Notes under the pieces: model-generated
The model's database searches: none
The model's input: only the letters and a program-made list of their open reading frames with translations
What the model was told of the DNA's origin: nothing
DNA from: Streptomyces antimycoticus
GTDB lineage: Bacteria; Actinomycetota; Actinomycetes; Streptomycetales; Streptomycetaceae
Reading direction: 5' to 3'
DNA: 64,000 bases
Assembly (NCBI RefSeq): GCF_005405925.1
Contig: NZ_BJHV01000001.1
Coordinates: 1,550,001-1,614,000 of the forward strand
Made by a program: the position numbers and the translations under genes
Part shown: piece after piece, positions 6,001 through 20,129 of the stretch
How positions within the stretch are numbered: position 1 is the stretch's first letter
Layout: every line of letters begins with the position of its first letter

Positions 6001-9000
6001 TCCCCACCGGCAGCGTCACCTTCGACCCCGGCGACGGCACACCGACCGTCACCGCGCCGCTCATCGCGGGGTCGGCGAACATCACCCACACCTACGCCGG
6101 CACCTCCGGCACCCCCTACACCATCACCGCCGCCTACAGCGGCGACGCCGACTTCACCGCCTCCACCGGCACGGACACCCAGACGGTCGGTCAGGCGGAC
6201 ACCGCCACCACCGTGGGCACCTCTCCGGACCCGTCCGTGGCGGGTGAAGTGGTCACCCTCACCGCCAGGGTCTCGGCCGTGGTTCCGGGGGCGGGCTCCC
6301 CCACCGGCAGTGTCACCTTCGACTTCGGCGACGGCACACCGACCGTCACCGCACCGGTCACCGGCGGGGTGGCGAGCGCCACTCACGCCTACCCCACCTC
6401 GGTCGGCAGCCCCTTCACGGTCACCGCCGCCTACGGCGGAGACCCCGACTTCGCCCCGTCCACCGCCACCGGGACCCATACGGTGCTGGTGAGCGCCGCC
6501 ACCACATCGACCACCGTGACCTCCTCCCCGGACCCCTCGGTGACGGGCCTGCCGGTGACCTTCACCGCGACCGTGGCACCGACGCCACCCGGCGCCGGGG
6601 TGCCCACCGGCACGGTCACCTTCGATTTCGGCGACGGCTCGGCGCCCGCCACGGCGTCGCTGTCCGCAGGCGTGGCGAGCGCCGTCCACGCCTACTCGAC
6701 CGCGGCGGGCAGCCCGTACACGGTCACCGCCGACTACAGCGGGGACGTCAACTTCAGTACCTCCGCGGGCACGGACACCCATACGGTCACCCCGGCCGCG
6801 ACGACCACGACGGTGGCCTCCGCACCGGATCCCTCCGTGGTGGGCCGGCCGGTGGCCCTCACGGCGGCCGTGGCCCCCGTCTCCCCGGGCGCGGGAGTGC
6901 CCACCGGCACCGTCACCTTCGACTTCGGCGACGGCTCTCCGGTCGCGTCGGCGTCGCTGACGGGTGGGGTGGCCACGATCAATCACGCCTATGCGAGCGC
7001 CGATGGCTTCACGGTGACCGCGACCTACGCCGGCGACACCAGCTACATCTCGTCCACCGGCACCGACACCCAGACCGTGGACCAGGCGGCCACCGCGACG
7101 ACGCTGGTCTCCTCGCCGAATCCCACGGTCAGCGGTCAGCCGGTCACCCTCACGGCGACGGTGGTGCCGATCGCCCCGGGGGCGGGGGTGCCGACCGGGA
7201 CGGTCACCTTCGGCTTCGGCGACGGCACACCGACCGTCACCGCGCCCCTGTCCGGCGGCCTCGCGTCCGTCAGCCACTCCTTCACGGGGGCCTCCGGCGG
7301 CCCGTATACGGTCACAGCCACCTACAACGGGGACGCCAACTTCACCGCGTCCGCCGCCACCGATGTCCAGACAGTCGACAGGACGGCCACCACGACGGCG
7401 GTGACCTCCTCCCCCGATCCCAGCGTCACCGGGCAGACGGTCACCCTCACCGCGACGGTCTCCCCGCTCGCCCCCGGCGCCGGGACACCCACCGGCACCG
7501 TCACGTTCAACCCCGGCGACGGCACCCCGGCCATCACCTCAACCCTGTCCGGTGGCACGGCCACCGCCACCCACGCGTACACCGGCGCCGCCGGCAGCCC
7601 CTACACCGTCAACGCCACCTACAACGGCGACACCAACCACACCTCGTCCACCGGCACCGACACCCAGACGGTCAACAGGGCCGCCACCACCACGACCGTC
7701 GCCTCCTCACCCGACCCCACCTTGGCCGGCCAGACCGTGACCCTCACCGCCACCGTCACCCCGGTCGGGCCCGGCTCCGGCACCCCGACCGGCACCGTCA
7801 CTTTCACCTATGGCGACGGCGCACCGGCCGCCACGGCACCGGTCACCGGGGGCGTGGCCACCGTGACCCACGTCTACGCGGGGACCTCGGGCAGCCCCTA
7901 CGCCGTCACCGCCACCTACAACGGGGACGCCGGCTACACCTCGTCCACCGGCACCGACACCCAGACGGTCAACAGGGCGGCCAGCATCACGGCCGTCGCC
8001 TCCTCGCCCGACCCCAGTGTCACGGGCCAGACCGTGACCCTGACCGCCACCGTGGCATCCGTCTCCCCCGGCGCCGGAACCCCGACCGGCACCGTCACCT
8101 TCTCCTTCGGCGACGGCACACCGACCGTCACCGCGCCCCTGTCCGGCGGCACGGCCACCACCACCCATGCCTACACCACCCGGACCGGCAGCCCCTTCAC
8201 GGTCACCGCCACCTACAACGGGGACACCAACTACACGACGTCCACCGGCACCGACACCCAGACCGTGGGCCGGGCGGCCACGACCACGGCCGTGGTCTCC
8301 GCCCCGGACCCCTCGGCGACCGGGGAGTCCGTGACCCTGACCGCCACCGTGGCATCCGTCTCCCCCGGCGCCGGAACCCCGACCGGCACCGTCACCTTCT
8401 CGTTCGGCGACGGTACGAACAACGCCACCGCGACCCTCTCCGGCGGCGTCGCGACCGTCACCCACACCTACACCACCAAGGCCGGCAGCCCCTTCCCCAT
8501 CACGGCCACCTACAACGGGGACACCAACTTCAGCGCGTCCAGTGGCACCGACACCCAGACCCTCAACGCCAAGACCGTGACCACCACCACGGTGACATCG
8601 ATCCCCGACCCCTCGGTGGTGGGCCAGCAGGTGACCATCAGTGCGACGGTCTCGTCCCCGACCGGTATCCCGGCCGGGGCGGTCACCTTCTCCTTCGGTG
8701 ACGGCACCAACACCGCCGTGGGAATCCTGCTCAACGGTATCGCGACCGTCACCCACACCTACACGACCACCACCGGGAGCCCGTTCACCATCACGGCCAC
8801 CTACAACGGGACCGATAACTTCGCCACCTCCAGCGGCACCGACACCCAGACCGTCAACAAGGCGGCCACCACGACATCCGTGGTCTCCTCCCCCAACCCC
8901 TCGACGGTGAGCGATCCGGTGACGGTCACCGCGACCGTGTCCTCCGTCGCCCCCGGCACGGGGAGGCCCACCGGGACCGTCACCCTGGCCATCACCGAGC

Positions 9001-9161
9001 GCACCCCCCATGTGGTGACACTGGTGAACGGCACCGCCTCCGCGACGTTCAACCCGCTGCAGAAGGGGACGCACACCGTCACCGCCAACTACAACGGCGA
9101 CGTCAACTACGCGACCTCCTCGGCGACCACCACGCAGACGGTGAACACCGGTCAGGGGTAG
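3..9161 (+). CDS. Giant TIG/Ig-like repeat surface protein (5' end outside window)
   Basis: The frame is open from the left edge, so the start lies upstream; 3052 residues are visible. The N-terminal part holds the end of one IPT/TIG domain and two full ones (about 55-300 and 301-555). From about 556 to the stop there are 29 tandem Ig-like repeats of about 99 residues (297 bp). Each has the pattern PDPSVxGxPVTxTATV, then PTGTVTFDFGDG, then AYT..GSPYTVTATYxGDxxF, then GTDTQTV. The FGDG element resembles the aspartate loop of PKD domains. Variants are DPGDG in repeats 5, 16, 19 and 24, a degenerate FSDN in repeat 6, and a last repeat with no GDG. No sortase motif or C-terminal membrane helix is visible; the protein ends in TVNTGQG. 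By family, such proteins are secreted or wall-associated adhesins or stalks; the exact role is unknown. It converges on the SMC-like operon with a 10-bp gap. Confidence 0.85.
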   Translation, partial: KVTTPGGTAPIGFFYYVAWPTLTGLLPIAGPIGGGNIVELTGVNLSTARLVRFGNAIASPTAVSDQHLLVAAPPASGPGTVSLYVISVGGVSNRLLYTYAPVPVVTEVSPATGSVAGGETIVLTGTGLTYVTGVTIGGVPAASFESYSDTLLAVVTPPGLPGPADITVTTAGGSVTVPGGFAYTASTTTAITSAPDPSVVGQPVTFTAVVTGVPPTAGTPTGTVTVDFGDGSPSVNASLTDGTATVSHVYTAPSVTPYAITAEYGGAAYFTPSTGTDTQTVEAAATTTTVASTPDPSVPGQSVTFVAQVAPAPPGAGAPTGTVTFDFGDATPTVTLPLANGAATVAHAYTDVPGSPYAATATYNGDTNFTSSVGTDSHTVEQAGTATAVASAPDPSTVGEPVTVTATVTTVSPGAGTPTGTVTLDFGDGTPPVTPPLTGGSVTATHTYTSATGSPYGITATYSGDSNFSASTGTDPQSVGQSSTATAVASAPDPSAAGEPVTVTATVTTVSPGAGTPTGTVTLDFGDGTPPVTAPVSGGQATATHTYASAAGSPYPISATYNGDADFRTSLGTDSQTAQPAATATAVTTAPDPSTVGDPVTFTATVTAVPPGAGAPTGTVTFDPGDGTPPITATLTGDTATATYAYTDTAGSPYTVTATYNGDIDFTASSGTDTQTVVPAATATAIASVPDPSTVGQSTTFVAKVTPGTPAAGSPTGTVAFEFSDNTPPVTAPVTGGTASVTHTNPESATPYTVAVTYSGDQNFHPSSAAGTHQVVQAVSTTVLTASPSPSVTGEPVTFTATVSAAPPASGTPTGTVTFDFGDGTAPVVLPLTGGTATTDHAYTTAAGSPYTVTLSYDGDANFVASVGTGLHTVDPAATATTVTATPDPTVTGELVTVTVAPTGPGAGTPTGPVTIDFGDGTPPVTAELVAGSAAVVHAYTSTAGSPYTISAEYGGDTDFAPSENSIDHAVAPAATTTVVTSSPSPSAVGQTVTLIARVAPVPPGAGAPTGTVTFDFGDGSAAATATIAGGVASTSHAFISTAGSPYTVTATYSGDDNFAASTGISAHQVEMSVSATSTTVSSAPDPSVAGEAVTVSATVAVLPPASGTATGTVTFQFGDDSPAVTVPLTGDTATTSHVYTSTAGSPYTISAAYSGDGDFTGSTGLDTQTVTPSSSSTAVSSAPDPSVTGEPVTFTATVTPGQVGAGTPTGAVTFDFGDGSPAVRAPLDNGTAIAVYAYRSTAGSPYAVTATYSGDASFTGSTDTDTQTVNPATTSTTVFSSPDPSQAGEPVTITASVTVLAPGSGTPGGTVIFDFGDGTPTVTAASVAGVATVTHAYTGTSGSPYTITATYDDDGGFASSTGTDVHTVQPASTTTTVTADPDPSVVGEQLTVTATVAPLAPGAGVPTGTVTFDFGDGTAPVTVPLAGGAAILAHTYASSLGSPYTITTTYSGSDDFRSSVSTETHTVLPAATTTTMSSTPQPSIVGQPVTFTATVAPVAPGGGSPTGTVTFDFGDGSAPAAVPVVDGLATAVYAYTSAAGSPYTVTATYGGDRDFTASGDTVTHSVGRASTAMAVTSTPDPSVAGQPVTVTATLSVVAPGAGTPTGAITFDFGDGTAPVTAPVTAGVASATHAWTNTSGSPYTITADYSSDGDFTAASGTDTHTVAPADTHTDVVSSPDPSVTGQPVTITATVSAVAPGAGTPTGTVIVDPGDGTAPVTASLTGGVATVTHSYTDASGSPYTITATYSGDADFTASSGTDTQTVGLASTTTSLSGLPEPSVTGQPVTFQARVAPVAPGEGSPTGTVTYDFGDGTAPVNVPVTNGVATAVHTYATAAGGPYTVTAAYGGDDHFIGSVDAETHFVERASSTTTVDSSPNPSVTGQPVTVTATVSAIAPGAGTPTGTVTFDFGDGTPTATAPVTGGAATLTHGYPTALNSPYTITADYSGDADFAPSSGTDTQNVTPAATDTTVTSAPDPSVPGQQVTIAATVAPAAPGSGIPTGSVTFDPGDGTPTVTAPLIAGSANITHTYAGTSGTPYTITAAYSGDADFTASTGTDTQTVGQADTATTVGTSPDPSVAGEVVTLTARVSAVVPGAGSPTGSVTFDFGDGTPTVTAPVTGGVASATHAYPTSVGSPFTVTAAYGGDPDFAPSTATGTHTVLVSAATTSTTVTSSPDPSVTGLPVTFTATVAPTPPGAGVPTGTVTFDFGDGSAPATASLSAGVASAVHAYSTAAGSPYTVTADYSGDVNFSTSAGTDTHTVTPAATTTTVASAPDPSVVGRPVALTAAVAPVSPGAGVPTGTVTFDFGDGSPVASASLTGGVATINHAYASADGFTVTATYAGDTSYISSTGTDTQTVDQAATATTLVSSPNPTVSGQPVTLTATVVPIAPGAGVPTGTVTFGFGDGTPTVTAPLSGGLASVSHSFTGASGGPYTVTATYNGDANFTASAATDVQTVDRTATTTAVTSSPDPSVTGQTVTLTATVSPLAPGAGTPTGTVTFNPGDGTPAITSTLSGGTATATHAYTGAAGSPYTVNATYNGDTNHTSSTGTDTQTVNRAATTTTVASSPDPTLAGQTVTLTATVTPVGPGSGTPTGTVTFTYGDGAPAATAPVTGGVATVTHVYAGTSGSPYAVTATYNGDAGYTSSTGTDTQTVNRAASITAVASSPDPSVTGQTVTLTATVASVSPGAGTPTGTVTFSFGDGTPTVTAPLSGGTATTTHAYTTRTGSPFTVTATYNGDTNYTTSTGTDTQTVGRAATTTAVVSAPDPSATGESVTLTATVASVSPGAGTPTGTVTFSFGDGTNNATATLSGGVATVTHTYTTKAGSPFPITATYNGDTNFSASSGTDTQTLNAKTVTTTTVTSIPDPSVVGQQVTISATVSSPTGIPAGAVTFSFGDGTNTAVGILLNGIATVTHTYTTTTGSPFTITATYNGTDNFATSSGTDTQTVNKAATTTSVVSSPNPSTVSDPVTVTATVSSVAPGTGRPTGTVTLAITERTPHVVTLVNGTASATFNPLQKGTHTVTANYNGDVNYATSSATTTQTVNTGQG
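556..9161 (+). repeat. 29 x ~297-bp tandem coding repeats
   Basis: The repeats encode Ig-like modules of about 99 residues. Neighbouring units are locally identical: 1196-1297 equals 1493-1594 (102 bp), and 8032-8104 equals 8329-8401 (73 bp), both offset by exactly 297 bp. Elsewhere the units differ at many positions, so the identical patches point to recent local gene conversion or unit duplication. Units 8, 22 and 28 are slightly shorter than the rest. Confidence 0.9.
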
Positions 9162-9171
9162 CCCGCCGGGC

Positions 9172-12100
9172 TCACGACCGGTCCGCCGCCTCGGCGGGCG
9201 CATCCGCGCCCGTCTCGGGGCGGCGGTACATCCGGGTCGCGGTGATCTGGCCGTGCACCTGCTGCTCCTCCTCCGTCTCCCGGGCCGGCAGGCCGGGCCG
9301 CAGATGCTCCTCGACACTGATGTACTTCAGCCCGGCCCGCAGGTCCGCGTCATTGCGCAACCGGATCACCAGCGGGAACTCGGCCAGCGCCGTGGTGTCG
9401 AACAGCCCCGTCGTATAGAGGAGCTGGACCCCGAGCGCGTCCGCGACAGCCCGCTGAAGCTCCAGCAGATAGGTGGCGTTGGCGCGGCCGATGGGGTTGT
9501 CGAGGAAGAGGGTGCCCGCGTGGCGGTGCTTGTCGCGGCCCCGGTCGTTGCTGCGCAGGGCCGCCATCGTGCAGTACAGCGCGATGGCGGCGGTCAGCAA
9601 CTGGCCGCCGGAGAACACATCGCCCATCTGTCCCACCGGCACCCGCTCGGCCCGCAGCACCGCGTCCGGTTTGAGGATCTCGACGGCCACCCCGCGCGGC
9701 TGGAGCGCGGCGTGGACCCCGCGCAGCAGCAGCGACATGCCGTCCCGCCGCAGATCGGAGTTCTTCCGGACGGCGGAGCGGGTCGCCTCGTCGATGACCT
9801 CGCCGAGCCGCTCGGCGAGCGTGGCCTGGTCGGGGTCCTCGAAGCGGATCCGCAGGAACTCCTGCCCCGACCACTCGCCGAGCCCCTCCGGGAGCCGGGA
9901 GAGCCGCTGCGCCGAACGCAGGGTGGCCAGGCAGGACTCGACCAGGCCGCGCAGCCGGTCCACGATGGAGTCGCGGTTGCGCTCCAACTGCTCGAGCTCG
10001 TCGGTGAGCACGCGCAACCGGGGCGCGAACGCGTCGGCCCAGGCGGCGGCGTGCTCGGGCAGCGCGGCCGCGGGGAGTTCGCGGATCTGCTGGCGGGCGG
10101 GGGTGCGCACCTGCTCGTAGCGGGTGGAGTTGGCGTGCCGCACCAGCACATCGCCAGCCTCCCGCACCGCCGACTCGGCCCCCGACAGATCGGCGGCGCA
10201 GCCGCGCAGTGAGCGGCGGGTCTCGGCGGCGGCCTGACGGGCCTCGGCGAGATCGCCGGCGTATGGCTCGGGCCGCTCGCCGTCGTCCTCCGCGCCGGGG
10301 CCCTCGCGCAGCAGATCCCGCAGCAGGGCCGCGGTCTCGTCGAAGCCGCCCGCCGCGTCCTCGGCGGAGCGGTGGGAGCGCACCAGGTCGGCGTGGGCGG
10401 TACGGGCGGTGTCCAGGGCGTCGGTACGGGCGGCCAGTTCGCCGTTGGCGGTGCGCAGCAGCTCCTTCGCCTGCTCGGCGTCGGCCGGGACCGTCTCCTC
10501 GGGCAGCTCGGTGTGGGCGTCGCCGTCGGCGGGGGCGAGCCGCTCGGCCTCGCCGCGCAGCCGCCCGAGCTGCTCGCTCGCCGCCGACGCGCGGCTCTCC
10601 AGCAACTGGACGAGCGATTCGGCGCGGGCGGCGGCGGCCTGCCGGGAGGGTCCGTCGGCGCCGTCGGTGCCCTCCAGGAGCTGGGCGGCGCGGGTGCGGA
10701 CCTTGTTGGTGAGCCGGTCGAGGGAGGCGAGGGCGGCGCTCTCGTCGCTTTCGGCGCGGGCCTGTTCGGCGCGCAGATCGGCGCCGACGCCGACCTTCTC
10801 GTAGACCTGCGAGGCGGCGCGGTACGCCTCGCGGAGCGCGGGCAGCGAGGTGGTGGGCGGCTCGGCGTCCTCGCCGAGGTCGTCGGGGGCGCCGGCGATC
10901 TCCGCGCGCTCGGCGCGCAGGGCGCGGGCGGTACGGTGCGCGTCGTCGGCGGCGCGCTGGGCGGCGCGCCGGTCCTCGTCGGCGGAGCGGGCCCGGTCCA
11001 CGCAGCCCGCGGCGCGCTCCTCGTACTCGGCGGCCTCCTCGGCCAGTTCGCGCAGCCGGGTCTGCCAGGTGGCGCGCTCCCGCAGCCGGTACGCCAGACC
11101 GGCCAGCGCGTCCGCCACCCGGCGGGCCCGCTGCGCCGCCTCCTGGCGCTCGTCCCGGACGCGGGCGGCCTCGGTGGCGGCCTCGTCGGCCTCAGCCCGT
11201 ACCGTACGCGCCTCCACCAGCTCGCGCTGCGCGGTGTCGGCGGTCTCCCGGCCGGTCTCCGCCGCCGCCGCGAGCTCCGCGAGCCGCCCGGGCGGGCAGC
11301 CGGTGCGCCAGGAGGCGAGCCGCGCGGACAGCGCCCGGTCCCCGGCCAGCCGGGCGGCGAGCGCCCTGATCTCCTCGTCCCGCTCGGTGGCGCGGGCCCG
11401 CAGCTCGCGCCGCTCGTCGTCGGCGGCGCGCTCGTCGTGCATCGCCGGGTTCGGCGGCACGAGGAAGACCCCGCTGTCCTCGGTGCCGGGTGCGGGCGTC
11501 GGCGCGAGCAGCGCGGCGGACGTCCCGACGGCCACGGCGGACCGCGGCAGCAGCGACGCCTGGCCGAGCACCGCACGGGCGCGGGCGTGGGTGTCGGGGT
11601 CGGTGATGACGACGCCGTCCACCAGCTCGGGGCGGGCCGCGAGCACGGCGGCGTGGTCGACGGGGTCCACGGCCTGGGCGAGGTAACGCCAGCCGGGGAG
11701 GGCGGGGATGCCGTGCTCGCCGAGGTATTCGACGGCCGCCAGCACATCGGGGCTGGGCGGCAGCAGGCCCCCGTCACCGAGCGCGCCCAGGATCCGCGCG
11801 TCGTCGGCGGCGGCGGTCCGCAGCTCGAAGAGCTGCCGCTCGGCGGAGGCGACGCTCTCCTCGAGGAGCTCACGCAGCGCCTCGGCGTTGCGATCCAACT
11901 CCTCGGCGGTCAGCGGCCCGTCACCGAGGGGCCGCTGGGCGGGCGGGGTGCGGTGGCCGCGGTCGCGGCCGCTTTCAGGGGCGGGTTCGGGTTCGCCGCC
12001 GGGCTCGGGGCTCCAACAGTCGGAGTCGTCGGTGGTGGTGGCGGCCTGGGTTACGTCGGCCGTGTCGGTGTCGGTGTCGGCCTCCCCTTCGGTCCGACCG

Positions 12101-14742
12101 TCGTCACCGTCCCCGACCCGAGCCGACACCTCTCCGGACGGCCGAGATTCGGCCGCCACCACCCGGGCGCCGCCGCGCGGGGCACCCGACGGGGCCGCGT
12201 GGGTGCCGTGGGCGGAGTCCGTGGCGGCCGGGGCGCCGCCGCGCGGGTCGTCATCGCCCGACGGATCGTCATCGACCTCGTCGATCCGTACCGTCAGCCG
12301 CCCCGCGGGCCGTGACTCCGCGGCGAGCGGACGCCGCCCGGGGGCCTCCCCGGGACCCGCCTCCGCGTCCTCAGCAGACTCCCCTCCATGGCGAGTGGGG
12401 CGCGTCTCTTCCGCCTCACCCACCGGTCGGGCATCCGTCCGTGCACCGCCGACCGGGGCGGAGCCGTCCCCCGGCACCTCGCCCACCGGGCACGGCTCAC
12501 CGAGCGCGCGGGAGGCGGCAACGCCGTCACCGCTCGCCGGGTCGGAGGCGGAACCCCACCCGTAGTCCTCTCCCACGAGGCGTTCGCGGGTGTCGGTGGG
12601 GGGCTCCACGGCGGCGTAGGCGTGGTCGTGGGGCGCGGGCTCGGCGTCCAGGGGGATCGTGCGGGTGGAGGCGCGGAAGGCGGCGGGGAGTTGGGAGAGG
12701 CCGATGTCGTCCGCGTCCTCCTCGTCCACGCGGACGGTGATCCACCCGGCGCGGACGGAGTCGGTCGGCAGGGTGCGGGCGCCCCGTCGGCCCACGGCGC
12801 CCGCGCCCGGAATGCGCACCGTCACCCCGCTCACCGCGCGCGCGTCCGCCGCCGAGGGGCGGGTGGCGGCGCGCGGGGCGGGGACGGCGGCGGAGGGCTG
12901 CGGCAGGCCCAGCAGTTCGATCAGGCGCTGCTCCGCGCCCAGCGCCTCCGCGGCCCGCCGCTCCGCGTCGTACGCGGACTCCGCGGCCCGCGCCGCGTCC
13001 ACCGCTCGCGCCGCGGCCAGGTCGGCGCGGGCCTCCTCGGCGGCGGCCGTCTTCGCGTGGTCGGCGGTGCGCCGGGCGGTCTCGCGGGCCTCGTCGAAGG
13101 CGGCGACCGTGGTCTTCTCGGCGTCGCTCGCGGCGAGGGCGGCGCGGGCCGGGTCGGCGTCGGGGGCGGAGTCGTCGAGCCAGCCGGCGCGGACGGCCTC
13201 GGCGGTCTCCTGCTCGACCTCGGCGAGCCGCTGGCGCAGATGCTCGGCGTCGCTGCGGGCGCGCTGGGCCGCTGTGGCGGCGGAGGTGGCGTCGCGGTGG
13301 GCGGCCTCGCCGGCCTCCTGGAGGGCGGCGGAGCGCTCCTCCTCCTCGCCCGCGACCCGCTCTCCGTCCGCCGCCGCGGCGTGCAGTGCGCGGACGAGGT
13401 CGCCGGCGGCCTTGGCGCGGGCGGCGAGCGCGGGGGCCGCGTCCCGCTCGGCCTCGCGGATGGCGGCGGCCACGCGCGCGGAGCGGTCGGCGGCGGCGCG
13501 GTGGCGCAGCACCGTCTCGGCGGCCTGCCAGGCGGAGTGCAGGGTGCGGGCGTCGTTGAGCTCGCGGCGCTGCGCCGCGGCGCCCTTCTCGGCGGCGGCG
13601 AGCGCCAAGGAGGCGTGGCGGTAGGCGAGTTCGGCGGCGACGAGGTCGCTGCGGCTGCGGGCCGCCTCGGCGTCGGTGACGGCCTGGGCGGCGGAGTCGA
13701 CCCGCTCGGCGAGCTCGGCGGCGCGCGCCCGCTCCTCCGCGCCGCGTGCGGACAGCCGCCGGGCGAGCGTACGGGTGCGGCGCTCGGCGCCCGCGTGCAC
13801 GCCGCGGGCCTGCTCACGCCGCTCGGCGGCCTCCGCGATGCGCTGGAGCAGATCGAGCGAACCGGCAGTGAAGTCGCGCTCGGCGGTCAGCTCGGCGCGG
13901 CGGCCCAGCTTGTGGGCGAAGCCGTGGACGAGGTCGGCGAGCCCGTCGGTGTCGCGGGTGTCGGTGACGGCGCGCAGCAGGAGGTCGGTGAAGTCGGAGT
14001 CGTTCTTGACCGCGAAGAGCCCGGCCGCCTCGCCCTCGTCGGCGTTCATCTCCCGCTGGTAGCGGAAGAGTTCGGGGTCGAGGCCGAGCTCGCCGAGGTG
14101 TTCGTTCCAGCGCTCGTGGATCTCCACCCAGACCACGTCGAGATGCGGATACGCCTTGCCGGCCTCCGTAAGGGCGTCACGGAAGCCCTTCATGGTGCGG
14201 CGGCGGCCGCGTGCGGTGGAGGCCCCCTCGACGGAGGGTCGCACCGCCGCCGACTCGGCGACCGGCAGCGAGTCCAGGCTCATTCCGGGGCCGGGCCGGA
14301 AGGAGTACCACGCCTCGGCGAACTTCCGCGGGTCGTTGGAGACCTGACGGCCGCGCCATTCGCTGACCTTGCCGACGACGACGGTCTCACCGGTGACGGT
14401 GTGCTGCCACTCCAGCGCGACATGCCCGCAGTCGTCGGCGAGCAGGAACTTGCGCAGCACACCGGAGCTGGCACCGCCCAGGGTGTTGCGATGGCCGGGC
14501 AGCATCACCGAGAAGATCAGCTTGAGCAGGACGGACTTGCCGCCGCCGTTCTCCAGGAAGAGCACACCGGCGGGGGCGGGGCGGCGCGGCGGGCCGACCG
14601 GCTCCTCCTCGAAGAACTCCGCCTGGGTGGGCGCGGGGCTGGGCACCGGCTCGCCGACTCCGCGCAGGTCCAGCACGGTGTCGGCGTAACGCGCACCGGC
14701 CGGCCCGATGGAGTAGAGGCGGATCCGGGACAGCTCGTACAT
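9172..14742 (-). CDS. SMC-like (MukB/JetC-type) coiled-coil ATPase
   Basis: 1856 residues with SMC-type architecture. An N-terminal half-head carries Walker A (ENGGGKS, residues 64-70). Long Ala/Glu/Arg-rich coiled coils flank a central region. The C-terminal half-head has an ABC signature (SGGQ, about 1711-1714) and Walker B (LFLDNP, Asp about 1748). The residue after the Walker B Asp is Asn, where ABC ATPases usually have the catalytic Glu. The centre contains an acidic, low-complexity insert (about 635-935) followed by a compact hydrophobic region that could be the hinge. The start is ATG after the upstream gene with a 62-bp gap. Position behind two smaller genes recalls MukF-MukE-MukB and the JetA-JetB-JetC part of Wadjet, but no JetD/TOPRIM gene lies nearby. 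SMC family membership is well supported; a role in chromosome organisation or plasmid defence is inference. Confidence 0.75.
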   Translation of the reverse strand: MYELSRIRLYSIGPAGARYADTVLDLRGVGEPVPSPAPTQAEFFEEEPVGPPRRPAPAGVLFLENGGGKSVLLKLIFSVMLPGHRNTLGGASSGVLRKFLLADDCGHVALEWQHTVTGETVVVGKVSEWRGRQVSNDPRKFAEAWYSFRPGPGMSLDSLPVAESAAVRPSVEGASTARGRRRTMKGFRDALTEAGKAYPHLDVVWVEIHERWNEHLGELGLDPELFRYQREMNADEGEAAGLFAVKNDSDFTDLLLRAVTDTRDTDGLADLVHGFAHKLGRRAELTAERDFTAGSLDLLQRIAEAAERREQARGVHAGAERRTRTLARRLSARGAEERARAAELAERVDSAAQAVTDAEAARSRSDLVAAELAYRHASLALAAAEKGAAAQRRELNDARTLHSAWQAAETVLRHRAAADRSARVAAAIREAERDAAPALAARAKAAGDLVRALHAAAADGERVAGEEEERSAALQEAGEAAHRDATSAATAAQRARSDAEHLRQRLAEVEQETAEAVRAGWLDDSAPDADPARAALAASDAEKTTVAAFDEARETARRTADHAKTAAAEEARADLAAARAVDAARAAESAYDAERRAAEALGAEQRLIELLGLPQPSAAVPAPRAATRPSAADARAVSGVTVRIPGAGAVGRRGARTLPTDSVRAGWITVRVDEEDADDIGLSQLPAAFRASTRTIPLDAEPAPHDHAYAAVEPPTDTRERLVGEDYGWGSASDPASGDGVAASRALGEPCPVGEVPGDGSAPVGGARTDARPVGEAEETRPTRHGGESAEDAEAGPGEAPGRRPLAAESRPAGRLTVRIDEVDDDPSGDDDPRGGAPAATDSAHGTHAAPSGAPRGGARVVAAESRPSGEVSARVGDGDDGRTEGEADTDTDTADVTQAATTTDDSDCWSPEPGGEPEPAPESGRDRGHRTPPAQRPLGDGPLTAEELDRNAEALRELLEESVASAERQLFELRTAAADDARILGALGDGGLLPPSPDVLAAVEYLGEHGIPALPGWRYLAQAVDPVDHAAVLAARPELVDGVVITDPDTHARARAVLGQASLLPRSAVAVGTSAALLAPTPAPGTEDSGVFLVPPNPAMHDERAADDERRELRARATERDEEIRALAARLAGDRALSARLASWRTGCPPGRLAELAAAAETGRETADTAQRELVEARTVRAEADEAATEAARVRDERQEAAQRARRVADALAGLAYRLRERATWQTRLRELAEEAAEYEERAAGCVDRARSADEDRRAAQRAADDAHRTARALRAERAEIAGAPDDLGEDAEPPTTSLPALREAYRAASQVYEKVGVGADLRAEQARAESDESAALASLDRLTNKVRTRAAQLLEGTDGADGPSRQAAAARAESLVQLLESRASAASEQLGRLRGEAERLAPADGDAHTELPEETVPADAEQAKELLRTANGELAARTDALDTARTAHADLVRSHRSAEDAAGGFDETAALLRDLLREGPGAEDDGERPEPYAGDLAEARQAAAETRRSLRGCAADLSGAESAVREAGDVLVRHANSTRYEQVRTPARQQIRELPAAALPEHAAAWADAFAPRLRVLTDELEQLERNRDSIVDRLRGLVESCLATLRSAQRLSRLPEGLGEWSGQEFLRIRFEDPDQATLAERLGEVIDEATRSAVRKNSDLRRDGMSLLLRGVHAALQPRGVAVEILKPDAVLRAERVPVGQMGDVFSGGQLLTAAIALYCTMAALRSNDRGRDKHRHAGTLFLDNPIGRANATYLLELQRAVADALGVQLLYTTGLFDTTALAEFPLVIRLRNDADLRAGLKYISVEEHLRPGLPARETEEEQQVHGQITATRMYRRPETGADAPAEAADRS

Positions 14743-14804
14743 GGCGGCGGACTCTCGTTGTCGGAAGGGGTGGTGATGTCGGGCGGGCGGGGGCGGGGCG
14801 GGGT

Positions 14805-15688
14805 TCAGGAGTGGAAGGGGAGACCGGCGTCGGCCACCAGATCGAGGTCGTCGCCCTCGTCGGGGGCAGCAGGGTCGCGCTGCCGTCGCTGACGGGGACG
14901 ACACCGAGCTCCAGCAGCTCGGCCATGGCGGCGGTGGCCGCCATGTCGCGCACCTGGAGCTGATAGCGGGCGGTGGTGCGGTAGGTGCCGCCGGACTCGT
15001 CCCCGGTGCGCTGCAGAAAGCCGGAGTCGACCAGGAAGGCGAGGGCCTTGCCGACGATGCCGGTGGTGGAACCGGCGAGCCTGCGCGCGTCCTTGGTGGC
15101 GCCGGTGGCGCTGCGCCGGGCGTACACCCGCCAGGCGGATTCCAGCCCGGGCGCTCCGGTGGCGGGGTCGGTGTTCTCCCCCTGCTCCTCGGCGCGCTCC
15201 TCCAGCCGACGGCACGCCTGGCGGACGAAGGCGTCGACGCCGTTGACGGTGACCCGGCCGATATAGCCGTCGTCGGCGAGGTCCTCGGGGCGGGGGAACG
15301 CCAGGGCGGCGACGGCGAGATGCGCGAGGCCGTGCAGAAAGCGGTCGGCGGAGTCGGTGGCGGCCCGGCGCGCGTAGTCGCCCATGCGGACGGCGAAGAC
15401 GGAGTCCTCGGCGGCGGTGACGGCCATTCCGGCGCGGGTCGAGACCTCCAGCACGATGAGCCCGAGCCCGGCGGCGACGGCGTCGGCGAGGCGCGCGAAG
15501 GCCGGTTCATCGCGGTGGCGGCGCAGCAGCTCGGCGTATTCGACGTCGCGCGCGGGCAGCAGCTTGGGCTGGAGTCCGAAGGCCACCAGCCGTGCGGCGT
15601 CGGCCGCGTCGGCGGGCGTGATCCCGGGCGCCGCCGGGGCGGGTGCCGCGTCCGGCGTTGTGCTGTCGTCGATGTCGTACTCGGTCAC
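14805..15688 (-). CDS. Putative MukE/JetB-like accessory protein (frameshifted)
   Basis: About 294 residues once one base is restored. The start is GTG at 15688 with a strong GAGGAGG site 9 bp upstream. The body is mostly helical, with a C-terminal stretch (FLVDSGFLQRTG, then TYRTTARYQLQVRDMA) that looks like a winged helix. Near 14862 a GGGGG run is one base short. The frame that leaves LLPP is rescued by DEGDDLDLVADAGLPFHS and a stop at 14805, and the length leaves remainder 2 modulo 3, as expected for one lost base. A 15-codon reading frame (15732-15685) links the stop of the preceding gene (TGATG) to this start (GTGA). It may be the true N-terminus if another base is missing. The assignment rests on size, gene order and coupling to the SMC gene, not on a diagnostic motif. 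Confidence 0.55.
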
Positions 15689-15731
15689 GGCTGAACCTCC
15701 TCGCGCGGGGCGTCTTCACTGGTCATGGCCA

Positions 15732-17262
15732 TCAGGCCACCTCCGCCCGGTCGGCCGCCATACCGGCCGCGTCCAGCAGGGCGGTACCCACTATCAGGTC
15801 GGCGCCGCCGAACTCGGGGTCGTCCAGCTCGGTGCCGTCGTCCACGGCGAACAGCAGCCGCTGCTCGCCCTGCCGGTAGGCGGTGCCGACCGGGGGCTGG
15901 CGGCGTGGACGGCGAGGAGGGCGATCAGATAGGGCAGTTCGGGGTCGCGGCGGCGGGCGTCGGCGAGCAGCCCGGACAGCCGGCGAGGGGCGTCGGCGGG
16001 CAGCTCGAGCAGCTCCATGGCCACCGCCAGCTGCTCCTCGCTGAAGCGGCTGTCGTCGGGGGTGGCGATGAGGTCCGGCTCGGGCATCTCGGCGCCGAGG
16101 TGCTCACGCTCCACGGGCGGGGTGAGCAGCATCTCGACCAGGTCGCCCATGCGCACCGAGGTCGGGGTGCGCAGGCCGGTGCCGCGGGCGAAGAACGCGT
16201 CGGTGACCCGGCCCGCGCGGTCGAGGGGCAGCGGGAGGACGGGGGCCAGAAGCTGGCCGTACAGGTCGTATCCGGAGCGCGGGGCGGGGGGTGCGAAGGC
16301 TTGGCGGTCCTGCTCGGCGCGGAACAGCGGACCGGCCTCCAGCAGCCGGGACTGGAGCTGGGTGTGGCGCCGGATGCAGTCCTTGACGATGTCCACGAGC
16401 TCGGCGGCGCGCCGCTTGTGCTCGGCGCTCTCCGCCTCGTCGCGCGCCTTACGGATGTTGGTGAGGATCGCGTTCTCATGGCGGTAGCGGTCGGCGACGT
16501 GGTCGAGCGCCTCGCTGATCAGCTCGGGGACGGTACTCAGCCAGTCGACGGCGCGGACGTTGCGCCGGGTGGCGTCGAGGGTGCGGCGCAGCGTCTCCGA
16601 GTACTGCACGGTGCGGTAGCGGGCCTGCTCGGCCGCGAGCTGGGCATCGGCGAGCCGGCCCCGGCTGATGAGGACCTCCAGCTTGACCTCGGCGGCGATC
16701 TGGGCGCTGGTGACATCCGTGTCCAGCGCGCCGACCAGGACGTTGACCGCCTCGTCGGTGGTGCGCAGATAGACGCTGCCGCCGGGACCGGGCACCTCTT
16801 CGATCAGCTTGAAGTCATAGTCCCTGCGGACATAGACCCCATCGGGCCCGAAGGTGCCGTAAACGGCGCGGAAGCCACGGTCCACACTGCCGACGTTGAT
16901 CAGGTTCTCCAGCACCCAGCGGGCGACCCGGTCGTGCTCGGCGGCGGGGCGCCCGGGGCCTGGGCCGCGATGCGGGGCAGCAGCCTGGTCACTATCTGCT
17001 CGTGGTCGGCGCCGGTGTCGAAGTCCATGTGGAGCGTGACGAGGTCGATGGCGGCGAGGGCGACCTCCGCCATCGCGTACACCCCGTACTCCCCCGCCAG
17101 GTTGGCCTTGCGCGCGTCGAGGTCGTGCAGCGGCGCGGTGCAGGCGAGCGCGCGCAGCCGCCGGGCCAGGCCCTCGTCGGCGGCCGGGCCCGGGGCCGGC
17201 CGGGCAGCCCCTTCAGCGGTGTTGAGCTGGGGCGCGGCGGCCCCCGGGGGTGGAGATGTCAC
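15732..17262 (-). CDS. Putative kleisin (MukF/JetA-like) subunit, two frameshifts
   Basis: Two single-base losses split this gene. Restored, it runs from GTG 17262 (VTSPPPGAAAPQ) to TGA 15732, about 510 residues. The first break is near 16952, where a CCC run is one short and IAAQAPG should continue as RPAAEHDRVARWVLEN. The second is in the GGGGG at 15892, after which the frame continues GTAYRQGEQRLLFAVDD to AGMAADRAEVA and stop. The length is remainder 1 modulo 3, matching two lost bases. The protein is soluble and largely helical, with a coiled middle segment. First position in an A-B-C operon before a small winged-helix-like protein and an SMC protein suggests a MukF/JetA-type kleisin. I see no motif that proves it. 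The stop overlaps the next ATG as TGATG. Confidence 0.5.
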
Positions 17263-17392: not shown

Positions 17393-18508
17393 CTACGGCT
17401 CACCGGCCGGTGGTCCGTCCAGGGCGAGCGCCGCGAAGGTGGCCAGCCAGTGATCGCCGGTGAAGTCCCCGGAGTCGGTGGCCGGGAGCCCGGCGGCCAG
17501 ATGGTCGCGGGCCGCCGTCCGCAGTACGTCCACCCGCGGATCGCCGTGCGGCAGGGCGGCGGCCAGGCGGCCGAGCGCGGCGGCCCGGCTGAGGATGAGG
17601 CCGAGGAGATGACCGATCTGCGGATCGGCGGGGTCGGAGACGACGGGCGGGGTGAGCACGGTGACGGGCGCGCCCCATTCGACGCCGGGCAGGAAGCGTT
17701 CCAGCCAGCGCGCGAACTCCTCTTCCGGCAGCACCCGGCTCATCGCCTCGGCCTCGGTGAGCGCGGGCGAGAGGAAGTCCTGTCCGGAGGGCTCCCAGTG
17801 GACGGGGGCGTCACGGTCGTCGGCGAACCAGCCGAGGACGGCCTCGGTGACCGGTTCGACGATCGTCTTGACGCCGGCGGCCGGCGCGCTGTCCAGGACC
17901 AGGCCGAGGGCGAAGGCGCTGTTGGTGTGGACGCCGTGCCGTACCGGGTAGGTGGCGCGCGCCAGCCATCCGCCCAGCAGTGCGCGGACGGCGTCGGCGG
18001 CCGGTTCCAGGGCCTTCGCCCAGCGCTCGCCCGCGGCTCCCGGGAGGCTCCGGCACTCGGCGGTCAACGCGAGCAGCCAGGCCCATCCGTAAGGACGCTC
18101 GAAGGAGGGATGGGCACGGAGATAGTCCGCCTCGGCGGCCAGGGCATCGACCGTAAGGTGCCCGTCCAGTACGGCGGTGACCTCGTCGGCCCGGATGCGG
18201 TCGGTGCAGCGACGCAGCAGCCGGACCAGCAGCCAGTGCATATGGACCGCGGAGTGCCAGTCGTAGGAACCGTAGAAGGCGGGGTGGTGGTGGCGCGGCT
18301 CCACCAAGTCCTCGGGGCCGCGCAGCAGATGCGCCGGGGCGTTGGGGTAGGCCCGGGTGACGTTGGCGGTGGCGAGGGCGGCGAACCGCGCCGCGTACCG
18401 GCCGAGTTCGCTCGCCGTCTCGTCCGGCCCGTCGGATTCGTGCGGCTCGTTGGGCTCATGCGGCTCGTGCGGCTCGTGCGGCTCGTGCGGCTCGTGCGGC
18501 TCGTTCAA
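17393..18508 (-). CDS. DUF2891 family protein
   Basis: 371 residues from a TTG start at 18508 that overlaps the pcp stop as TTGA. No ATG or GTG lies between that point and the conserved body, so the start is either this TTG or lacks a normal codon. The first residues are a run of Glu-Pro-His triplets. The body (LATANVTRAYPNAPAHLL, HHPAFYGSYDWHSAVHMHW, YGWAWLLAL) is typical of DUF2891, a helical family often found near peptide or sugar utilisation genes and with no established reaction. It is the last gene of the DUF969-DUF979-pcp operon, so a link to pyroglutamate or peptide use is likely but inferred. No signal peptide is visible. Confidence 0.8.
   Translation of the reverse strand: MNEPHEPHEPHEPHEPHEPNEPHESDGPDETASELGRYAARFAALATANVTRAYPNAPAHLLRGPEDLVEPRHHHPAFYGSYDWHSAVHMHWLLVRLLRRCTDRIRADEVTAVLDGHLTVDALAAEADYLRAHPSFERPYGWAWLLALTAECRSLPGAAGERWAKALEPAADAVRALLGGWLARATYPVRHGVHTNSAFALGLVLDSAPAAGVKTIVEPVTEAVLGWFADDRDAPVHWEPSGQDFLSPALTEAEAMSRVLPEEEFARWLERFLPGVEWGAPVTVLTPPVVSDPADPQIGHLLGLILSRAAALGRLAAALPHGDPRVDVLRTAARDHLAAGLPATDSGDFTGDHWLATFAALALDGPPAGEP
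18454..18504 (+). repeat. 9-bp tandem repeat (ctcgtgcgg) at pcp/DUF2891 junction
   Basis: Five near-perfect copies of a 9-mer, with degenerate flanking copies, directly follow the TTG start of the DUF2891 gene. On the coding strand they read Glu-Pro-His. Unit length is a multiple of three, so copy-number change would not shift the frame. Confidence 0.85.
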
Positions 18509-19149
18509 TGCGTTGCTCCCTCGGCGATGCGCAGGTCGGTCCGGGTGCGCACGGCCGCCCCGATGACCGCCCGCAGCGCGTCGGCGGACATGGCGGCGGG
18601 CAGTGCGGGTTCGGCACGGTCCACGACCTGTTCGGGCGCGTACGGGAGGTGGACGAAGCCGCCGCGCAGGGCGGGCCGCTCGGTGGCGATGAGATGGGCC
18701 AGGCCGTAGAAGACGTGGTTGCACACAAAGGTCCCGGCCGTCTGCGAGACGGCGGCCGGAATCCCGGCCTCGCGGACGGCCGCGACACACGCCTTGACGG
18801 GCAGGGAGGCGAAGTAGGCGGCGGGGCCGCCCTCGATGACCGGTTCGTCGATGGGCCGGCGTCCGGCGTTGTCGGGTATGCGGGCGTCGTCCACGTTGAT
18901 CGCGACCCGCTCGACGGTGACATTGGGGCGCCCGCCGGCCTGGCCCACGCACAGCACCAGATCGGGGTCGGCCTCCGCCACGGCGGCGGCCAGCTCCTCC
19001 AGCGCGGTGCCGAAGACGCAGGCGAGCTGTATGGCCGTGACCTCGGTGCCGGGCGGCGGATCGGCGGCGACGAGGGAGACGGCCTGCCACGACGGGTTGA
19101 CGTCCGAGCCCGCGAAGGGCTCGAAGCCGGTGAGAAGTACTCGGGTCAC
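18505..19149 (-). CDS. pcp: Pyrrolidone-carboxylate peptidase (pyroglutamyl peptidase I)
   Basis: Cytosolic cysteine peptidase (family C15) that removes N-terminal pyroglutamate from peptides, giving free 5-oxoproline. 214 residues, the usual length. The glycine-rich N-terminus (LLTGFEPFAGSDVNPS) and the catalytic triad are visible: Glu80 (in VTVERVAINVDDAR), Cys143 (in TAGTFVCNHVFYG) and His167 (in GGFVHLPYAPEQ). These match the classical numbering almost exactly. The start is GTG 19149, 11 bp after the DUF979 stop; the stop overlaps the DUF2891 start. Neighbouring putative transporter genes and the nearby pxpABC genes fit a pathway in which peptides are trimmed and the released pyroglutamate is opened to glutamate. 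Confidence 0.95.
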   Translation of the reverse strand: MTRVLLTGFEPFAGSDVNPSWQAVSLVAADPPPGTEVTAIQLACVFGTALEELAAAVAEADPDLVLCVGQAGGRPNVTVERVAINVDDARIPDNAGRRPIDEPVIEGGPAAYFASLPVKACVAAVREAGIPAAVSQTAGTFVCNHVFYGLAHLIATERPALRGGFVHLPYAPEQVVDRAEPALPAAMSADALRAVIGAAVRTRTDLRIAEGATH

Positions 19150-19160
19150 AGCGGCCCCCT

Positions 19161-20129
19161 TCAGAAGGCGAAGAGCGAGATGATGGCGATGTTGCAGACC
19201 AGCAGCGCACCGGCGGTGGGGATCTGGGCCTTGATGGGCCCGTACTGGTCCTTGAGTTCCAGCAGCGCGGCGGGCACCAGGTTGAAGTTGGCGGCCATGG
19301 GGGTCACGAGCGTGCCGCAGAAGCCGGCCAGCATGCCGACGGCGAGGACGACGGGCGGATCCCCGTGCATCTGCTGGATGAGCACGGGCCAGCCGATGGC
19401 GGCGGTCATCACCGGGAAGGCGGCGAAGGCGTTGCCCATGATGATGGTGAACAGGGCCATTCCGACGCAGTAGACGGCCACGGCGATGTACTTCTGGCCG
19501 TCCGGCAGCAGCTGCTCGGTGATCTTGCCGACCTGGGTGCCGACCCCGGCCACCTGGAAGATGGAGCCGAGCACGGCGAGCAGTTGGGGCAGCAGCAGCG
19601 CCCAGCCCATGGACTCCAGCAGGCTCCGGCCGGCGTGCAGGGGCACCGAGGGCCGCCGCTCGCGCACCACGACCATGGCGACCAGCAGCCCGACGATCGC
19701 GCCGAAGCCGAGGCCGAGGATGGTCTCGCTGCCCTCCTCCAGGACCGGTTGGCCCCCGATGTGCCAGTGCTTGACGGCCGAGGCGCAGACGACGGCGACC
19801 AGCGGGATGGTGAGCGCCGGGACGAACAGTTTGCTGCCGAGCCGGGCGGCCGTGGCGACGCGCTGCTCGGTCGTGGTGGTGCGTGGCACACCACGCCCGG
19901 TGAGCGGGAAGCCGCCGAGGCAGACCATGGCGAGGACGGCGACGCCCAGCGGTTCGGCCGGGGCCTTCTTCTCCACCACCCAGCTGCTGTAGAAGAAGCA
20001 GCCGCCGAGCAGCCCCCAGAAGGCGGCCGAGCCAAGGCGCTTGGGGTTGCTGCGGTCGACAGCCATCTGGGCGGCCATGGCGAGGAAGACGGCGCCGACG
20101 AGCCAGTAGAACCACTCCGCCTTGATCAC
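19161..20129 (-). CDS. DUF979 membrane protein (putative 5-oxoproline transporter subunit)
   Basis: 322 residues with about nine to ten hydrophobic segments, for example WFYWLVGAVFLAMAAQMAV at the N-terminus and ALLVCNIAIISLFAF at the C-terminus. This is an integral membrane protein of the DUF979 family, which is found almost always next to DUF969. The start is GTG 20129, overlapping the DUF969 stop by GTGA, so the two are translationally coupled. Family pairing and the downstream pcp gene suggest the two proteins form a permease for pyroglutamate or a related small acid; this is inference from gene neighbourhood. Confidence 0.88.
   Translation of the reverse strand: MIKAEWFYWLVGAVFLAMAAQMAVDRSNPKRLGSAAFWGLLGGCFFYSSWVVEKKAPAEPLGVAVLAMVCLGGFPLTGRGVPRTTTTEQRVATAARLGSKLFVPALTIPLVAVVCASAVKHWHIGGQPVLEEGSETILGLGFGAIVGLLVAMVVVRERRPSVPLHAGRSLLESMGWALLLPQLLAVLGSIFQVAGVGTQVGKITEQLLPDGQKYIAVAVYCVGMALFTIIMGNAFAAFPVMTAAIGWPVLIQQMHGDPPVVLAVGMLAGFCGTLVTPMAANFNLVPAALLELKDQYGPIKAQIPTAGALLVCNIAIISLFAF

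Follow-up and report, generated by a model that had tools for sequence, protein, structure and literature searches.

MukBEF of enterobacteria contains no nuclease, and its gene order, F-E-B, is equivalent to the A-B-C order of Wadjet genes. In Wadjet plasmid defense, sensing is attributed to the JetABC core and cutting to JetD, and MksBEF of Pseudomonas, a three-subunit kleisin-KITE-SMC complex without a nuclease, is described as acting on the chromosome (available part of PMC10586767). The MksBEFG systems of Corynebacterium and Mycobacterium are also actinobacterial kleisin-KITE-SMC complexes, but they have an MksG nuclease (that of C. glutamicum matches PF09983) and are defensive, according to excerpts of PMC10123090. 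Here, we analyzed a jetABC-like locus within a 64,000-nucleotide stretch of the Streptomyces antimycoticus genome (contig NZ_BJHV01000001.1, positions 1,550,001 to 1,614,000; hereafter the window). We consider it probable that this locus encodes a type III Wadjet minus its nuclease, kept as a chromosome-acting, MksBEF-like SMC complex beside SMC-ScpAB.

Comparison with the described systems reveals both kinship and difference. The locus resembles type III Wadjet in its JetA3 and JetC3 families, its A-B-C gene order, a related JetB and the Walker B variant DNPIG, whereas it differs in having no JetD, in being near-universal and largely syntenic in Streptomycetaceae rather than sporadic, and in a core JetC that is often longer by way of a low-complexity insertion near the hinge. 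As JetD was looked for and not found, the locus falls outside the definition of Wadjet. Like MksBEF, it lacks a nuclease and coexists with SMC-ScpAB, but it belongs to the type III lineage, and its chromosomal role is one that we infer. The MukF-like and MukE-like predicted folds of its orthologues recall MukBEF, although it has no sequence similarity to solved structures, those of MukBEF among them, at E values up to 10 and does not replace SMC-ScpAB; JetABC would be an additional complex, because canonical SMC (755.8 bits) and ScpA (188.4 bits) are also encoded in the same genome.

The three genes and their families

The genes, and the sites in JetC discussed below, are as follows:

9172..14742, minus strand: jetC-like SMC ATPase gene, 1856 residues, intact (open reading frame; PADLOC JetC3)
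14805..15688, minus strand: jetB-like KITE gene, about 292 residues, ends placed by homology
15732..17262, minus strand: jetA-like kleisin gene (MukF/JetA3 family), about 510 residues, ends placed by homology
14533..14556, minus strand: Walker A-like motif LENGGGKS, JetC residues 63-70, from the sequence
9601..9615, minus strand: ABC signature FSGGQ, JetC residues 1710-1714, from the sequence
9481..9510, minus strand: Walker B/D-loop region LFLDNPIGRA, with Asn at the position of the catalytic Glu, from the sequence
11911..12891, minus strand: low-complexity, hinge-proximal insertion of JetC, residues 618-944, from the alignment of JetC rows

The position of the catalytic Glu within Walker B is the one that we assume for SMC proteins. 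The genes are separated by about 40 bases (A-B) and 60 bases (B-C). The original prediction, made from the sequence alone, had placed a three-gene A-B-C operon at 9172..17262 and assigned its products to the MukF/JetA, MukE/JetB and MukB/JetC families. The coordinates are right, with all three genes on the minus strand, the proposed 1856-residue SMC-like ATPase corresponds to an intact open reading frame of 1856 codons, and the JetA3 and JetC3 profiles agree with the folds of the orthologues in supporting these families, which are of the Wadjet type III kind.

Gene C matches the JetC3 profile of PADLOC (PDLC00588) with 1421.8 bits, and the pieces of gene A match JetA3 (PDLC00567) with 444 and 99.5 bits, as compared to 615 bits for an intact orthologue. 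Gene B has no match in Pfam, PADLOC or NCBIfam; the PADLOC JetB3 profile is matched neither by the window protein nor by the core JetBs, and one JetB from a JetD-bearing locus matches it with an E value of 5e-6. The core JetBs are homologous to the JetBs of JetD-bearing loci (41-49% identity), and the window protein is 87% identical to an orthologue over residues 25-273. Searches of the PDB with sequence profiles of A and B, and with the single sequence of C, returned no relatives at E values up to 10 (one noise row), and the folds of A and B were therefore predicted. An orthologue of A is predicted to adopt a MukF-like fold, and the predicted fold of a Streptomyces orthologue of B matches JetB (8dk1/8as8) and MukE; these structures rank first in the VIA-align lists, with many unrelated helical or winged-helix chains close behind. 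An IFDR motif at the JetB N-terminus is reported to contact JetD (part of PMC10586767), but it is absent from all JetB rows inspected, JetD-bearing and JetD-less alike, and is thus uninformative.

Within JetC, the FSGGQ signature is present in 53 of 55 rows, the other two (L117 and L121; locus and genome labels are ours) being partial gene calls. The main reason for the 1856-residue length is the 327-residue insertion, which is partly acidic, lies at the hinge end of the coiled coil, contains VTVRI-like repeats and is very variable in length among Streptomycetaceae. The VTVRI-like pattern was considered as a conserved motif and rejected; it is present in the window and in none of the other rows (0/33 core, 0/8 Frankiaceae, 0/9 JetD-bearing and 0/24 Pseudonocardiaceae), and the insertion is for this reason taken to be a fast-evolving, low-complexity loop.

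JetD and the distribution of the locus

The original prediction had noted no JetD on either side of the operon, and searches of the window and of the genome agree. A hidden Markov model (HMM) of type III JetDs detected none among the six-frame open reading frames of the window, and the 11.2-Mb genome contains no match to JetD_C (PF09983). It likewise contains no type III JetD at E values up to 10 when searched with A6, a profile of sixteen type III JetDs whose cleaner alignment was used for genome searches. Such an empty answer alone proves little, but the profile works, as it matches in 11 of 150 Streptomyces genomes; the remaining 139 contain no type III JetD by the same profile.

The core genes themselves are nearly ubiquitous. 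Of 295 Streptomyces genomes, 291 contain JetC3, and JetA3 matches in 120 of the 121 genomes sampled from Streptomycetaceae, covering 17 of 17 genera; these tallies alone do not distinguish the core form from a complete Wadjet III. The core form is present in at most 16 of the 17 genera, because the sole genome of genus g112 (G532) carries a JetD-bearing locus (L078) in its place. JetD_C occurs in 35 of the 295 Streptomyces genomes. To compare the two forms, 34 core loci from Streptomycetaceae, 11 from Frankiaceae and 15 non-core type III loci were fetched. JetD lies downstream of JetC in 14 of the 15 non-core loci (the fifteenth, L107, ends inside JetC), a control set in which six loci were chosen for a JetD_C beside JetC and nine of the 14 seeded the JetD HMM. 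With the same HMM, no JetD was found in the core loci that have a called JetC with sequence beyond it (0/33 of the 34 in Streptomycetaceae, 0/9 of the 11 in Frankiaceae). The HMM comprises 11 rows from nine JetD-bearing loci, two of them wrong-frame reading frames overlapping the gene, and its matches in L078, L109, L117 (57 bits only), L123 and L125 are independent of the seeds. Loci unable to show absence are L096 and L118, in which JetC ends 63 and 2 bases from the contig end, respectively, and L113, in which no JetC was called; L107 and L225 are cut off.

A second set of named loci, the best 80 of 563 and partly from the same genomes as the fetched core loci, gave the same result: 66 include the end of JetC, and JetD is found in none of the 64 with at least 1.5 kb beyond it (best E value 0.71). 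JetD is thus not regularly adjacent in relatives, the observation that the original prediction had named as able to overturn it. Protein relatives were taken from the best 120 of 1119 and the best 120 of 667 matches. Both forms can occur in one genome, as in G107 (L088 with JetD, L089 without) and G603 (L086 and L108). No JetC relative was found in phages, and JetC matches occur in nine plasmid records, with at most 43% identity.

The locus is also maintained intact. An uninterrupted JetA frame is present in 80 of 80 named loci and an uninterrupted JetB frame in 73 of 76, counts that come from best matches only and are biased to intact genes. In Streptomyces core loci, the median pairwise ratios of nonsynonymous to synonymous substitution (dN/dS, Nei-Gojobori method) are 0.157 for JetA (18 loci), 0.207 for JetB (15) and 0.213 for JetC (18). 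Neighboring genes at the same loci gave 0.482 for CvnA (15), 0.192 for CvnB (13), 0.271 for CvnD (11), 0.242 for the GntR type (12) and 0.245 for the LamB/YcsF type (9). JetABC is therefore under purifying selection about as strong as that on its conserved neighbors.

The window differs from this pattern in its frames. Relative to an intact Streptomyces orthologue (tblastn), gene A is interrupted near 16965 and near 15892 and thereby falls into three frames, and gene B has an apparent frame change near 14864, within its last 19 or so residues. Another frame shift lies near 27455 in a neighboring hydantoinase-type gene, while gene C and the GntR-type gene have none (both neighbor names are our presumptive readings of their sequences). 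Because that neighbor is affected too, the breaks in A and B are probably indel errors of the assembly. The assembly as a whole seems indel-rich, with two breaks in JetA, apparently one in JetB, one in the hydantoinase-type gene, and a canonical SMC that matches in more than one open frame.

The genes surrounding the locus in the window are:

153..9161, plus strand: convergent Big_3_5 repeat protein of 3002 residues with 29 Big_3_5 Ig-like stretches (Pfam; neighborhood map)
17393..19210, minus strand: DUF2891 gene (Pfam PF11199, 410 bits, residues 275-596)

These Pfam assignments match the convergent repeat protein and DUF2891 originally described as flanking the operon. The Big_3_5 protein occupies the position held in most relatives by a conservon, whose CvnA-type kinase gene follows JetC in 24 of the 33 Streptomycetaceae core loci with downstream sequence. 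In one locus (L074:2457-6775), Pfam identified the conservon proteins as NIT/HATPase_c (histidine-kinase-like), Robl_LC7 (Roadblock), DUF742 and ATP_bind_1 (GTPase). This adjacency would allow a tie between a G-protein-like sensor and the SMC complex. Frankiaceae core loci (L110-L121) have conserved neighbors of their own, among them a gene that, from its sequence, we presume to be TerD-like.

Type III loci in Frankiaceae and Pseudonocardiaceae

A JetA from Amycolatopsis matches in 60 of 394 class-wide genomes: 40 in the family of S. antimycoticus (f1), 19 in family f18 and one in family f46, which was taken as Pseudonocardiaceae. Family f18 is Frankiaceae, with best named matches in Frankia, Parafrankia and Pseudofrankia, and at least one of its genomes (G311) has no match; separate copies with JetD are present in addition in some Frankiaceae (L223, L224 and L226). 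In Pseudonocardiaceae, 37 of 120 genomes, from 15 of 46 genera, have a match, and the 29 loci fetched from this family comprise 23 without JetD and six with it. The glyceraldehyde-3-phosphate dehydrogenase gene, gap, lies on the downstream side in 16 of them, and in one clade (L222 and L229-L245) JetABC lies within a housekeeping cluster, with rapZ-whiA on one side and gap-pgk-tpiA on the other. Pfam confirmed WhiA, RapZ, Gap, Pgk and Tpi, each in a single locus, while uvrC and yvcK on the rapZ-whiA side are names that we presume from the sequences. The same whiA-gap site holds a JetA-B-C-D arrangement in L243, where JetD matches PADLOC JetD3 with 302 bits, and two loci of the same genus code differ in having JetD (L248) or lacking it (L249).

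In a first JetA tree, built without most Pseudonocardiaceae rows (26 of the 34 fetched Streptomycetaceae core loci, 9 of the 11 Frankiaceae loci and 11 of 34 database proteins), the JetD-less JetAs form one clade (99/97) among JetD-bearing rows. This suggested a single loss of JetD, an idea that was dropped once the Pseudonocardiaceae rows demanded five changes of JetD label on the JetA tree (at least four forced by well-supported branches) or three on the JetC tree (three forced). In these later trees, Streptomycetaceae and Frankiaceae still form one clade (JetA 99/99; JetC heads 100/99), and the window JetC lies inside the Streptomycetaceae core clade. The second JetA tree retained 16 of the 26 core rows and omitted the database proteins and L078, which has an in-frame stop and a very long branch; the JetC tree contained 15 core rows, the window, 8 Frankiaceae, 9 JetD-bearing and 26 Pseudonocardiaceae rows, leaving out L250, L253, L256, L113, L118, L121 and those JetD-bearing loci in which no JetC was called. 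Because JetD, where present, always follows JetC, the simplest reading of these trees is that JetD was lost more than once, although fewer losses plus regains could also account for them.

A proposed chromosomal role for JetABC and its alternatives

The favored model is that JetABC descends from type III Wadjet plasmid defense by loss of the JetD nuclease and that Streptomycetaceae then retained it among their core chromosomal genes. In this model, dimers of C would join the kleisin A and the KITE protein B in an ATP-driven ring that entraps DNA and travels along it or extrudes loops, as in MukBEF and Wadjet, and that, in the absence of JetD, would act on chromosomal DNA rather than cut plasmids. 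Since cutting in Wadjet is assigned to JetD and sensing to the core, the remaining complex would be a motor without a weapon, and it may serve as a second condensin-like complex beside SMC-ScpAB, as MksBEF does in Pseudomonas. The original prediction had offered a chromosome-organizing relative of MukBEF or a minimal defense system that borrows a nuclease; the former is the better supported alternative, as a putative function.

Several observations weigh against this model. In every one of the 53 type III JetC rows that contain the motif, JetD-bearing ones included, Asn replaces the Walker B Glu. ATP hydrolysis is consequently not assured, and type III JetCs may either hydrolyze ATP differently or not at all. 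No match is present in 83 of the 120 Pseudonocardiaceae genomes, and the JetD-bearing L243 and L248 nest among JetD-less rows, such that some changes could be regains. Genes A and B are frame-shifted in the assembly of S. antimycoticus, and function in this strain hinges on sequencing error. Finally, the conserved MksBEFG of Corynebacterium is a plasmid defense system (excerpts of PMC10123090), and conservation alone therefore does not prove a housekeeping role.

JetABC could instead be a nuclease-free defense system that recognizes small DNA circles and, without cutting them, restricts them through compaction, sequestration or silencing, in the manner proposed for Smc5/6. The family is otherwise one of plasmid defense (PADLOC), compaction of circular DNA is described as a mode of restriction (available part of PMC10586767), and conservation is also seen in the defensive MksBEFG (part of PMC10123090). 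We nevertheless regard this possibility as unlikely, as the locus is near-universal and largely syntenic in Streptomycetaceae, whereas JetD-bearing loci are sporadic and in some cases reside in the same genomes, and as JetABC lies inside a glycolysis/whiA cluster in Pseudonocardiaceae.

Defense could also be achieved if JetABC borrowed a nuclease encoded elsewhere. Relatives retain intact sensor subunits, complete Wadjet III or another JetD_C is present in a few Streptomyces (35/295; type III JetD in 11/150), and the Pseudonocardiaceae cluster contains what we presume from its sequence to be a uvrC-like excision nuclease gene. However, no JetD was found in the genome of S. antimycoticus by two profiles and no type III JetD in 139 of 150 Streptomyces genomes, and any nuclease borrowed in these genomes would need to belong to a different kind. 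The neighbors checked by Pfam (conservon, WhiA, RapZ, Gap, Pgk and Tpi) are not nucleases, and this explanation appears very unlikely.

The position of the conservon raises the further idea of a developmental or signaling SMC complex that is tied to the adjacent G-protein system, anchored at the membrane or hyphal tip, and not a general condensin. In its favor, 24 of the 33 Streptomycetaceae core loci with downstream sequence have a conservon after JetC (Pfam-identified in one), and Wadjet relatives localize to the cell poles with DivIVA in C. glutamicum (part of PMC10123090). However, the window, 9 of the 33 core loci and the Frankiaceae loci have no conservon kinase gene mapped beside JetABC, and the conservon sensor CvnA evolves far more quickly than JetABC, which is not the case for CvnB; we find this idea highly doubtful. 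Lastly, a decaying remnant of Wadjet III, as the two frame changes in A and apparently one in B of this assembly might suggest, is scarcely tenable and for the family largely refuted by the open frames of JetA (80/80) and JetB (73/76) in the best-matching named loci, by dN/dS values of 0.16-0.21 and by the frame-shifted hydantoinase-type neighbor, which points to indel errors of the assembly.

Retention of JetABC as a chromosome-acting complex can be joined with the history of JetD in a broader reading, on which we are evenly divided. JetABC would be the unnamed, second near-universal condensin of streptomycetes, and the Wadjet III nuclease would have been lost several times in filamentous actinobacteria with the motor left intact each time: in Streptomycetaceae together with Frankiaceae, in the whiA-gap clade of Pseudonocardiaceae and in single genomes. 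Such a repeated conversion of a plasmid-shredding machine into a chromosome organizer might then be seen mid-way in L243 and in the sister pair L248/L249.

Papers on Streptomyces condensin name SMC alone in this role (available parts of PMC13121528 and PMC8410768), and a survey of defense in Actinobacteria reports Wadjet by way of DefenseFinder, with neither JetD nor JetC in its main text (PMC10482375). Activity of JetABCD on the chromosome is not documented so far, in the available part of PMC10586767, and we found no publication on a nuclease-free JetABC in Streptomyces within the open-licence PMC literature.

If the chromosomal role is correct, JetABC would add a participant so far missing from accounts of how linear, multi-copy genomes fold and segregate. 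A naturally nuclease-free JetABC would offer a clean setting in which to probe JetABC activity on the chromosome, and sister loci with and without JetD would serve as natural before-and-after pairs. Defense surveys that count only complete Wadjet systems would miss what is the commonest form in Streptomyces.

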